Shown: positions 3,276-61,266 of the stretch, one piece after another
Position numbering within the stretch: position 1 is the first letter of the stretch
Layout of the letters: every line of letters starts with the position of its first letter
Assembly: GCF_035989265.1 (NCBI RefSeq)
Contig: NZ_JAYKZX010000003.1
Span: 2,666,001 to 2,730,000, forward strand
Length of the DNA stretch: 64,000 nt
DNA from: Sphingobium sp. HWE2-09
GTDB lineage: Bacteria > Pseudomonadota > Alphaproteobacteria > Sphingomonadales > Sphingomonadaceae
Reading direction: 5' to 3'
Notes under the pieces: generated by a model
Databases searched by the model: none
The model's input: only the letters and a program-made list of their open reading frames with translations
Told to the model about the DNA's origin: nothing
Made by a program: the position numbers and the translations under genes

Positions 3276-3300
3276 GCGCTTTGATCCACTTGAATAGCTG

Positions 3301-3370
3301 ATGTTCCCCGGCGAAGGCCGGGGTCCAGTTTCACGGTCGGAACTGGACCCCGGCCTTCGCCGGGGAACAT
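3301..3370. repeat. Perfect 30-bp-arm inverted repeat between ribD and ribE
   Basis: Two exact 30-bp arms (3301-3330 and 3341-3370) face each other across a 10-base loop. Each arm contains the GTTCCCCGGCGAAGGCC unit seen singly at 779-810 and 18485-18515, so this is a head-to-head pair of a dispersed repeat. In the riboflavin transcript it would fold into a very stable hairpin between ribD and ribE, and could attenuate transcription or protect RNA ends. Confidence 0.88.
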
Positions 3371-3379
3371 GAAAACCCC

Positions 3380-18472: not shown

Positions 18473-18484
18473 TATCTCGCAGGG

Positions 18485-18515
18485 CTGTTCCCCGGCGAAG
18501 GCCGGGGTCCAGTCC
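18485..18515. repeat. Solo palindromic repeat, GTTCCCCGGC family
   Basis: CCCCGGC-GAAG-GCCGGGG followed by TCCAGTCCCGCC is a single copy of the unit paired at 3301-3370. It stands just after the nusB stop and may help end transcription. Confidence 0.7.
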
Positions 18516-18586
18516 CGCCGATGACCGGCTCACGATCCTTCGCTGGAAAGCAAGCCTTTTGGCATCACCCTGCATATGGAAAGCAG

Positions 18587-18654
18587 CGTGCTCCTGCGAA
18601 GGCAGGAGCCCAGGCCCATGGTTCGAACTGGGCTCCTGCCTTCGCAGGAGCACG
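18587..18654. repeat. Perfect 27-bp-arm inverted repeat upstream of thiL
   Basis: Exact 27-bp arms (18587-18613 and 18628-18654) carry the unit GTGCTCCTGCGAAGGCAGGA and flank a 14-base loop. It is a head-to-head pair of a repeat whose layout resembles the GTTCCCCGGC family, 21 bases before thiL. Confidence 0.85.
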
Positions 18655-20988: not shown

Positions 20989-21597
20989 ATGATCGCGAAA
21001 CTCAAGGGCTTGCTGGACAGCACCGGCATCGATCACGCCATCATCGACGTGGGCGGCGTGGGCTATCTGGTCGGCGCGTCGTCCCGCACGCTCGCCGCAC
21101 TGGGGCCAGTGGGCGAAGCGGTGACGATCCATACCGAAATGCTGGTGGCGGCCGATTCGATCCGCCTGGTCGGCTTCGCCCGGGCCGAGGAGCGCGACTG
21201 GTATCGACTGCTCACCCATGTCCAGGGCGTGGGGTCACGCGTCGCGCTGGCGATCCTGTCGGCGCTGGAACCGCTCGAACTGCACCGCGCCGTCGCCATG
21301 GGCGACAAGGCGATGATCGCGCGCGCCAACGGTGTCGGCCCCAAACTGGCCCAGCGCATCGTCAATGAATTGAAGGACAAGATCGGCACGGCGCCTGCTG
21401 GCAGCCCGATCGGCGTGGGCGGCATGGCGGCGCTGCCGACCGGCAGTTTCGCCGCCGACGCCCTCTCCGCGCTCCAGAATCTGGGCTTCAAACCGCATGA
21501 GGCCAGCGTCGCCGTCGCCGCGGCCGAAGAAGAACTGGGCGACAATGCCAGCCTCGACGCACTGGTCCGCCTCGCGCTGCGAAAGGCGGCGAAGTGA
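20989..21597 (+). CDS. ruvA: Holliday junction DNA helicase subunit RuvA
   Basis: RuvA binds four-way DNA junctions and loads the RuvB motor for branch migration. The 202-aa protein starts [28 protein letters not shown] (OB fold). It has two helix-hairpin-helix motifs, [17 protein letters not shown] and [18 protein letters not shown], and the C-terminal domain III with [17 protein letters not shown] that contacts RuvB. ruvC is not adjacent. ruvB follows after a 427-bp gap that is almost entirely the GIY-YIG element. Confidence 0.96.
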
Positions 21598-21611: not shown

Positions 21612-22014
21612 CGTCATGCTGAACTCGTTTCAGCATCCATCATGCGACTTGCTCCAAAAGGTTGCCGAGATGAAGGAACCCTGCGTCTATATCCTAGCCA
21701 GTCAACCTTATGGCACACTCTATATCGGCGTGACGTCCAACCTCGTCGGCCGACTGATGCAGCATCGCAGCGATGCGATACCCGGCTTCACACGCCAATA
21801 TGGCGTCCATCGTCTCGTCCGCTACGAACCTTGCGACATGATGGAGCAGGCGATTGCGCGCGAGAAGCAACTCAAACGCTGGCGTCGCCAATGGAAAATC
21901 AACCTGATCGAATCCGACAACCCGCATTGGGCCGATCTGGCAGCCAATCTTGGCTTGCCGCCGCTCACTCTAACCCAGCCGCCCAATGGATGCTGAAACA
22001 AGTTCAGCATGACG
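21612..22014. mobile_element. 403-bp hairpin-bounded element carrying a GIY-YIG nuclease gene, inserted between ruvA and ruvB
   Basis: The element begins with a 27-bp unit starting CGTCATGCTGAA (21612-21638) and ends with its inverted copy finishing TTCAGCATGACG (21988-22014); the arms differ at one base. Each unit is itself a hairpin (TGCTGAA with TTCAGCA). Only 14 bp separate it from the ruvA stop and 10 bp from the ruvB start. The enclosed gene is 108 codons, and its stop codon is the TGA inside the right repeat. The second element at 60855-61266 has the same plan and the same terminal hexamers. Mobility is inferred from structure, not shown. Confidence 0.7.
21670..21996 (+). CDS. Small GIY-YIG nuclease-domain protein
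   Basis: The 108-aa product is a stand-alone GIY-YIG domain of the UPF0213/UvrC N-terminal-like type. Motifs are VYILAS (the GIY part), GTLYIGVTSN (the YIG part), the Arg of GRLMQHR, and E of RYEP with the later REKQLKRWRRQWK. The start at 21670 is used because the upstream codons translate repeat DNA. It is clearly homologous to the gene at 60897. Such proteins are predicted endonucleases. Between the inverted hairpins it may act on the repeats, much as RAYT transposases act on REPs; this is inference. Confidence 0.88.
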   Translation: MKEPCVYILASQPYGTLYIGVTSNLVGRLMQHRSDAIPGFTRQYGVHRLVRYEPCDMMEQAIAREKQLKRWRRQWKINLIESDNPHWADLAANLGLPPLTLTQPPNGC

Positions 22015-22024
22015 GGGTTTCTCA

Positions 22025-23047
<1,023 letters not shown>

Positions 23048-60854: not shown

Positions 60855-61266
60855 CGTCATTCCCGCGCAGGCGGGAACCCATTTCCGGAGGCTGCCATGA
60901 TGCATGAGATCAGTCCATCCGTTTACATCCTTGCCAGCCGACGGAACGGTACGCTTTATACCGGTGTCACAGCCGCCCTGATAAAGCGGTTGTATGAGCA
61001 TCGAAACGGCTTGATCCAAGGCTTCACGAACGACTACGGCGTCAAGCGCCTGGTTTGGTTCGAGCCGCATGACAGCATGGAGAACGCCATCCTGCGCGAA
61101 AAGCGGATCAAGAAATGGAATAGGCAGTGGAAGATAGAGCTGATCGAAGCCGAAAATCCCGACTGGGATGATCTGGCGCTGGGCTTGGGCTTTGAGCCTT
61201 TGCCCTCTCTACGCAGCGACTGACCGAAAAGTCGGGAGATGGGTTCCCGCTTTCGCGGGAATGACG
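60855..61266. mobile_element. 412-bp hairpin-bounded element carrying a second GIY-YIG nuclease gene
   Basis: The left unit CGTCATTCCCGC-GCAG-GCGGGA with ACCCAT (60855-60882) and the right unit ATGGGTTCCCGC-TTT-CGCGGGA with ATGACG (61239-61266) are inverted copies differing only in the loop (2 of 28 bases). Each is a hairpin in itself. The enclosed gene is a 108-codon GIY-YIG protein homologous to that in the element at 21612. The element lies 6 bp after the LysE stop and 16 bp before pheS, again a tight intergenic insertion. Mobility is inferred from structure. Confidence 0.7.
60897..61223 (+). CDS. Small GIY-YIG nuclease-domain protein (second copy)
   Basis: The 108-aa product is homologous along its whole length to the gene at 21670. 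It has VYILAS, GTLYTGVTAALIKRLYEHR (YTG in place of YIG), GFTNDYGVKRLVWFEPHDS and REKRIKKWNRQWKIELIEAE. The catalytic Arg and Glu positions are kept, but YIG to YTG is a small departure. GGAGGCTGCC lies before the double ATG. It is predicted to cut DNA, with the flanking hairpins the natural candidate target. Confidence 0.88.
   Translation: MMHEISPSVYILASRRNGTLYTGVTAALIKRLYEHRNGLIQGFTNDYGVKRLVWFEPHDSMENAILREKRIKKWNRQWKIELIEAENPDWDDLALGLGFEPLPSLRSD

Follow-up and report, generated by a model that had tools for sequence, protein, structure and literature searches.

A small stand-alone GIY-YIG protein is probably the cognate nuclease of CGTC REPs and the counterpart of RAYT in GTAG REP systems, and we refer to such gene-hairpin units as 'GIY-YIG REPtrons'. 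The example that led to this reading lies between ruvA and ruvB in the window, a 64,000-nucleotide stretch of the genome of Sphingobium sp. HWE2-09. In the scheme we propose, the unit would comprise a small Slx1-like GIY-YIG gene between two inverted CGTC REP hairpins with tags outwards, and the nuclease would be the partner both of its own hairpin class and of the gene-free, REPIN-like pairs of that class elsewhere in the genome. That hairpin class and nuclease form a matched system is well supported, since three samples with controls and a tree test point the same way. The original prediction had placed a GIY-YIG protein in the position of RAYT in a REP-like system, and this survives: the gene is bordered by its own REP class, with the tag CGTC.

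A direct check of the letters bore out the 403-bp unit in the ruvA-ruvB gap to the base (21612-22014), together with the predicted distances of 14 bp from the ruvA stop (21597) and 10 bp to the ruvB start (22025). Both neighbours lie on the forward strand: ruvA at 20989-21597, an ORF whose protein search matches 40 of 41 same-genus genomes, and ruvB at 22025-23047, an ORF supported by tblastn against the fetched loci. The left hairpin (21612-21638, forward strand; CGTCATGCTGAACTCGTTTCAGCATCC), a class A CGTC REP, consists of the tag CGTC, an 8-bp stem, a 5-nt loop and the tail CC, followed by AT. The right hairpin (21988-22014, reverse strand; CGTCATGCTGAACTTGTTTCAGCATCC as reverse complement) is its inverted copy, tag outwards, and the 27-bp ends differ, as predicted, at a single base, which lies in the loop. 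Folded alone, each gives the 8-bp stem and 5-nt loop (-6.7 kcal/mol, z -4.5 and -4.8), and the unit has an inverted-repeat score of 27, compared with shifted control windows that score 13 in 7 of 344 cases and never above 16. The gene between them (21670-21996, forward strand, 108 aa plus stop) encodes a stand-alone GIY-YIG nuclease, as identified by Pfam PF01541, an AlphaFold2 model and the aligned ruvAB copies, and its stop codon TGA lies within the right hairpin, both as originally described; the stop is inside the right hairpin in 8 of the 12 ruvAB copies read. A long ORF from 21616 begins within the left hairpin, and ATG 21670 is the start common to the ruvAB copies (MKEPC/MKQPC...), so judged by alignment this ATG, rather than one inside the hairpin, is most likely the gene start.

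CGTC REPs are described in the consulted passages of Di Nocera, De Gregorio and Rocco (2013, PMC3733652) as having a CGTC or TGTC (or CCTC) tag, an 8-9 bp stem starting with AT pairs, a 4-5 nt loop and a CCA-like tail, as forming tags-outside dimers, and as occurring mainly in Alphaproteobacteria, in all orders of that class examined and in other phyla; Neisseria dRS3 and Rickettsia RPE-4/RPE-6 are counted among them, and S. chlorophenolicum and S. wittichii are named as carriers. In our data, 100 of 194 strong repeats were anchored on GTC beside the stem, with the preceding base C in 70, T in 27 and G in 3, giving a consensus tag (C/T)GTCA and tail CC(A/C), and a perfect stem of at least 6 bp lies in the aligned stretch of 118 of the 194 strong repeats versus 41 of 970 random control windows. 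The ruvAB-unit hairpins fit the CGTC REP description in tag, stem, loop, tail, repetition and tags-outside dimers, as matched to the text description rather than to consensus figures, and both named carriers, S. chlorophenolicum and S. wittichii, are sphingomonads. A word search finds no occurrence of GIY-YIG in the text of PMC3733652, and no GIY-YIG-REP link in the searched parts of the 2025 RepRanger paper and the 2018 HuH survey. The relevant passages of PMC10688885 report the Caulobacter crescentus GIY-YIG genes CCNA_00744 and CCNA_01405 as strongly controlled by XRE regulators and a phage regulator, and do not link GIY-YIG to REPs. Literature searched by title and abstract start, with few subscription papers and no bioRxiv preprints, yielded no link of GIY-YIG to REP, REPIN, RAYT, dRS3 or REPtron.

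The class A protein matches PF01541 (Pfam, E 4.4e-14), the only domain to pass, with no NUMOD or other DNA-binding domain above cut-off in its 108 aa. GIY-YIG residues Y7, Y18, G20, R28, H32, E65 and N84 are invariant in 53 sequences, and the Tyr, Arg and Glu among them are presumably the catalytic residues. An AlphaFold2 model from 53 sequences (mean pLDDT 87) finds its best structural matches in UPF0213 BH0048, Slx1-Slx4 and UvrC, with probabilities mostly 0.8-1.0 and E-values above 0.001. A hairpin substrate would suit a modelled fold near that of Slx1, which cuts branched DNA. A role in defence was discarded, as PADLOC gave only weak matches (best E 0.0044).

Bracketing by inverted hairpins is shared by most of the small GIY-YIG genes sampled in the genus. 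The genus sample covers 41 genomes and most of the matches listed, fetched roughly in E-value order with weaker matches under-sampled; its 135 rows, minus 4 with short flanks and 3 duplicates, leave 128 distinct genes. Among the matches listed, an inverted repeat across the gene scores at least 13 in 122 of these 128, a count that includes one likely chance match (L127); L203, also counted as bracketed, likewise looks like a chance or AT-rich match. Control windows shifted by 1.1-1.5 kb, drawn from a slightly smaller gene set, gave the 7 of 344 quoted above, and neighbour genes reach 13 in 4 of 155 cases and never 16. In a class-wide sample of one gene per genome (69 loci, 67 usable after 2 short ones were dropped), 30 of 67 genes score at least 14 versus 2 of 179 controls. 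By protein type, defined after seeing the data, 22 of 38 GTLYxG, 5 of 5 DGSYYxG and 3 of 24 remaining genes are bracketed; L204 and L215, two of the last three bracketed genes, resemble the GTLYxG type, and many proteins outside the two hairpin-linked types look UPF0213-like by eye. At some class-wide loci CTCATCCTGAG..GTCGAAGGATGAG surround a third GIY-YIG protein type, and a second tag family may exist. Conserved peptides located 80 named loci in many phyla, of which 77 were usable (L313 and L339 were short, and L284, with an N-run, was removed by hand); 55 of 77 score at least 15 versus 4 of 408 controls, which retain one window scoring 47 that may be an N-run artefact like L284. These loci include Bacteroidota, Planctomycetota, Uhrbacteria, Omnitrophota and a Rickettsia symbiont. 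Overall, 1-3% of control windows are bracketed, and strong bracketing is missing from 37 of the 67 class-wide genes and from 22 of the 77 named ones. In plasmid-collection loci a clear hairpin pair is wanting in 2 of 12 read (Rhizobium tumorigenes and Planktothrix). A Neisseria gonorrhoeae record holds a gene 71.8% identical to the composite query amid clustered CGTCATTCCCGCG repeats, which we take to be the CGTC-1/dRS3 type named by Di Nocera et al. for Neisseriae. The original prediction had tied its mobile reading to homologous genes elsewhere also being flanked by hairpins, and a large part of them are, in the genus, class-wide and named samples.

The same pattern holds within this genome. 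A PF01541 search returned seven matches, six small genes and one 658-aa frame that we take for uvrC; an inverted hairpin pair surrounds all six small genes, with six different repeats, and none surrounds uvrC. The repeats include TCCGTTCGCCCTGAGCGAAGTCGAAGGGC, GTTCCCCGGCGAAGGCCGGGGTCCAGT, CGTCATTCCCGCGCAGGCGGGAACCCAT and CGTCACCCCGGGCTTGACCCGGGG, and the six fall into five classes by our labels because those of L004 and L005 share a stem type. One of these genes forms a second unit in the window, absent from the original prediction, at 60855-61266 (forward strand), in which class B hairpins CGTCATTCCCGCG..GCGGGAACCCAT, differing from each other at two bases, enclose a 108-aa GIY-YIG gene at 60897-61223. 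Gene-free hairpins also occur in the window. Class E hairpins (GTTCCCCGGCGAAGGCCGGGGTCCAG) form a tight inverted pair without a gene at 3297-3372, with copies at 777-810 and 18483-18512, and L002, a locus in another part of the genome, seems to hold their cognate gene. At about 18586-18640 inspection by eye showed an inverted pair of class F (CTCCTGCG type), again without a gene, and no class F GIY-YIG gene was found in this genome. The class A 13-mer occurs at six sites in the genome, where a search for exact class A mini-pairs found none.

Hairpin class follows the protein tree, the comparison that the original prediction had proposed. On a quick tree of 122 GIY-YIG proteins, built from few columns and with many unresolved forks, ten hairpin labels require 10 changes (the minimum is nine) compared with 62-75 in 200 shuffles, and the one change above the minimum comes from the L004 and L005 genes of this genome, both labelled B and placed in different protein clades. 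The labels are regular expressions written after seeing the sequences, and similar groups emerged from unsupervised clustering. Within an element, the left and right repeats are more alike than repeats of different elements, clearly so in two of six classes tested, a likeness inflated because the pair was picked as the best match. Class H (L001, L025 and L048, for example) pairs a repeat without a CGTC tag, CCGTTCG...CCTGAGC..GTCGAAGG, with a separate GIY-YIG clade, which likewise raises the possibility of a second tag family.

These results make it very improbable that the genes are passengers, that is, small genes caught in repeat-rich intergenic DNA whose hairpins are terminators or are moved by another enzyme such as RAYT. 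Intergenic repeats are indeed frequent in this DNA, the gene takes its stop codon from the right hairpin, and class A repeats are found without a class A gene in several genomes, in number in G032 (20 13-mers), G037 (18) and G034 (12); set against this are the 4 of 155 neighbour genes bracketed, the agreement of hairpin class with protein clade, and the distribution of Y1 transposases. No Y1_Tnp match was found in 29 of 41 genus genomes, this one included, and the 10 Y1 loci that were read, out of 13 matches, contain no class A 13-mer. RAYT as mobiliser of class A repeats is not supported, with Y1 presence no predictor of repeat number (p 0.49); the gene carriers richest in class A repeats (G027, G009 and G020) do have a Y1 transposase match. 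Repeat number is instead higher with the class A gene, with a median of 12 13-mers in 15 genomes with the gene versus 3.5 in 26 without (p 1e-4), an excess that persists after dropping the gene's own two repeats (p 1.5e-3) and within both Y1 strata (p 0.010 and 0.004). A control count with class C tends in this direction too (p 0.055), and the correlation loses its support when kinship is taken into account: independent pairs give a median p of 1, with too few pairs differing in count.

At the ruvA-ruvB site itself, 39 of the 41 genus genomes could be read (one has no ruvA match and one no ruvB in reach). The unit is present in 13; in 17 the two genes are 0-37 bp apart, and nine hold other sequence. 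The empty sites for which the original prediction had suggested a search are therefore found in 17 of 39 genomes, and the GIY-YIG gene, in 13 of 39, is not a fixed partner of ruvAB. No scar was seen at the empty sites. The other sequences (L144, L145, L164 and others) span 258-643 bp, and the gap thus seems tolerant of insertions. The 13 ruvAB copies of the protein form one clade (SH-aLRT 93), the distances among 12 of them show a moderate correlation with the ruvA distances (Mantel rho 0.42, a value reached in 39 of 2,000 permutations), and the median dN/dS is 0.083 (11 copies, 55 pairs, two saturated): this copy of the gene is under purifying selection. Unit presence requires at least 10 changes on the weakly resolved ruvAB tree. 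Of the predicted 'mobile or domesticated' REP-like system, the REP-like association with a GIY-YIG gene stands, and movement of the ruvAB unit is not supported, given the single clade, the ruvA-like distances and the purifying selection; nor did the search for target duplications at the boundaries find a hairpin-to-hairpin insertion bearing one. Both readings, mobile and domesticated, stand for the ruvAB unit. Domestication would make the protein an Slx1-like housekeeping nuclease that trims cruciforms of host repeats, with the adjacent hairpins as self-regulating targets. The strong purifying selection, the vertical signal at ruvAB and the closeness of the fold to Slx1, solved as a branched-DNA nuclease, speak for this, but patchy presence at ruvAB and the occurrence of several paralogues in a genome, most of them with a repeat of their own, suit selfish elements better, and we regard it as unlikely.

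Occupied and empty sites were also compared elsewhere. In the gap between fnrL and a response-regulator gene in Sphingobium, a class D unit is present in seven records (four read); its gene is one base short and unannotated in TomTYG73, and its right tag is shortened in TomTYG46. In its place TomTYG64 carries one hairpin, tagged at both ends, and TomTYG74 a degenerate hairpin; no class D hairpin occurs at this site in TomTYG72, TomTYG65 or S. herbicidovorans. The full unit is limited to one supported clade, outside which TomTYG64 and TomTYG74 branch (100/100). Between sufB and sufC, Azospirillum lipoferum 4B has the gene with a hairpin pair on each side; three relatives (95-97% identity) and A. 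thermophilum have no gene and, to judge by eye, no CGTC hairpin, and gain in A. lipoferum would be the simplest reading of these alignments, in which the junctions are not clean. At an rpoN2 intergenic site (L390 and L396-L400) the REP class, judged by eye, varies from one Sphingobium strain to another, which suggests turnover at a hotspot and makes the site no clean occupied/empty case. In G036, 438 bp common to four contig ends resembled hairpin-bounded transposition; identity extends 16 and 46 bp past the hairpins, and the repeat is therefore no proof of transposition.

Single hairpins with two tags bear on the possibility that the unit is a homing element, in which a GIY-YIG homing endonuclease seated in a palindrome would cleave the gene-free members of its hairpin class, and its gene would enter them through repair of the break, the hairpin arms and neighbouring DNA serving as homology. 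We hold this to be possible but sooner doubt it than accept it. The double-tagged hairpin of TomTYG64 (degenerate in TomTYG74), where others carry the class D unit, is of the kind expected, as are double-tagged class A hairpins of 29 bp (CGTC-stem-loop-stem-GACG), found once each in 4 of 41 genomes (L386-L389), and the patchy presence of one protein clade at ruvAB (10 changes on a weakly resolved tree) suits loss and re-entry. A single hairpin would, however, also be the product of a deletion between the 8-bp direct repeats that the two hairpins contain; such a hairpin is missing from empty ruvAB sites and, by eye, from empty sufB-sufC sites; and the protein has no NUMOD or other DNA-binding domain above cut-off. 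The double-tagged hairpins (L386-L389 in class A; L367, from TomTYG64, in class D) may be scars, targets or precursors.

Gene-free pairs are most numerous in G027, which has 55 class A 13-mers, many in inverted pairs. The 12 pairs read there are 88-92 bp long, lie in unrelated flanks and have a target duplication of at least 2 bp in no case; a gene-free pair on its own folds into a long hairpin (-39.7 kcal/mol, z -11.5). An exact-pair search of the 41 genomes found 17 in G027 and 1-2 in each of four others, and three of these five genomes (G008, G034 and G037) have no class A gene. Together with the occupied and empty sites described above, the multiplication of these pairs in G027 suggests mobility of the hairpin system. 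Single-strand transposition is expected to leave no target duplication, and one could suppose that the GIY-YIG protein is a transposase for hairpin pairs (REPINs) and itself mostly static, as RAYTs are. Tags outside, as in the published HH dimers, the 17 exact pairs in unrelated flanks, 12 of 12 mini-elements without a target duplication of at least 2 bp, and purifying selection on the gene would all agree with this. The chemistry would not, as we know of no strand-joining step in GIY-YIG catalysis. Nor do the mini-element spacers derive clearly from the unit: as internal deletions of it they were rejected, with one spacer scoring 15 (shuffles up to 10) and the others at most 11 (shuffle maxima 8-14). 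At three G027 sites compared with relatives no clean REPIN insertion was seen, the element being missing or replaced by other sequence, with junctions that align poorly. We judge transposition of this kind rather unlikely.

Several observations weigh against the cognate-nuclease reading: class A repeats, and in three genomes exact mini-pairs, where the class A gene is missing; the unbracketed genes of the class-wide, named and plasmid-collection samples; strong repeats without a perfect stem; the G036 segment that runs past its hairpins; the scarless empty ruvAB sites; and the loss of the repeat-number correlation under kinship. On this reading, the enzyme is likely to act on the hairpins. It would recognise its own hairpin folded in single-stranded or extruded DNA and nick at the tag or loop; less securely, host repair of the cut might then transfer copies of the pair, or of the complete unit, to new sites. 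GIY-YIG enzymes hydrolyse DNA, whereas HUH transposases rejoin it via a covalent intermediate, and because hydrolysis proceeds without such an intermediate, homing-like gene conversion would be our first choice for the copying step. The repeats may spread by homing-like repair or by transposition, or may be kept up by a domesticated nuclease. Tentatively, and with more doubt than conviction, we extend the scheme to CGTC REPs across bacteria, including Neisseria dRS3 and the Rickettsia RPEs, which might all be the hairpins of a selfish 'hairpin homing' system in which the enzymes of a given GIY-YIG clade cleave the palindrome of that clade in folded DNA, with repair then copying pairs or the whole unit; if true, this would be unlike RAYT systems in both enzyme and chemistry. 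The matching of a hairpin class to each protein clade makes what moves or maintains CGTC REPs testable. If the reading is right, it assigns a function to proteins whose annotation in several public records is no more than 'GIY-YIG nuclease family protein', and there are REP systems built on a nuclease unrelated to RAYT.

Several known systems share features with these units. UPF0213 and bacterial Slx1-like proteins (PDB 1zg2 and 1ywl) are likewise a single minimal GIY-YIG domain and are the closest solved folds. GIY-YIG homing endonucleases of the I-TevI type belong to the same nuclease family and spread by break repair may be common to both, but here no NUMOD domain and no intron was found, and the gene is free-standing between hairpins. 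DDE insertion sequences and MITEs make target-site duplications, in contrast to the class A mini-elements (0 of 12 with at least 2 bp). CGTC REPs, in the passages seen of PMC3733652, 'apparently lack a dedicated transposase' and are recorded without an associated one, whereas our data tie a nuclease gene to these repeats and so offer a candidate partner enzyme. The closest parallel is with REPtrons (RAYT/TnpA_REP with GTAG REPs), in which, according to the sections consulted of PMC8266576 and PMC3733652, a mostly single-copy gene is bordered by cognate REPs, several systems share a genome and gene-free REP pairs lie elsewhere, all as seen here; the difference is in the parts, an HUH tyrosine (Y1) transposase with GTAG repeats there and a GIY-YIG protein (PF01541) with CGTC repeats here.
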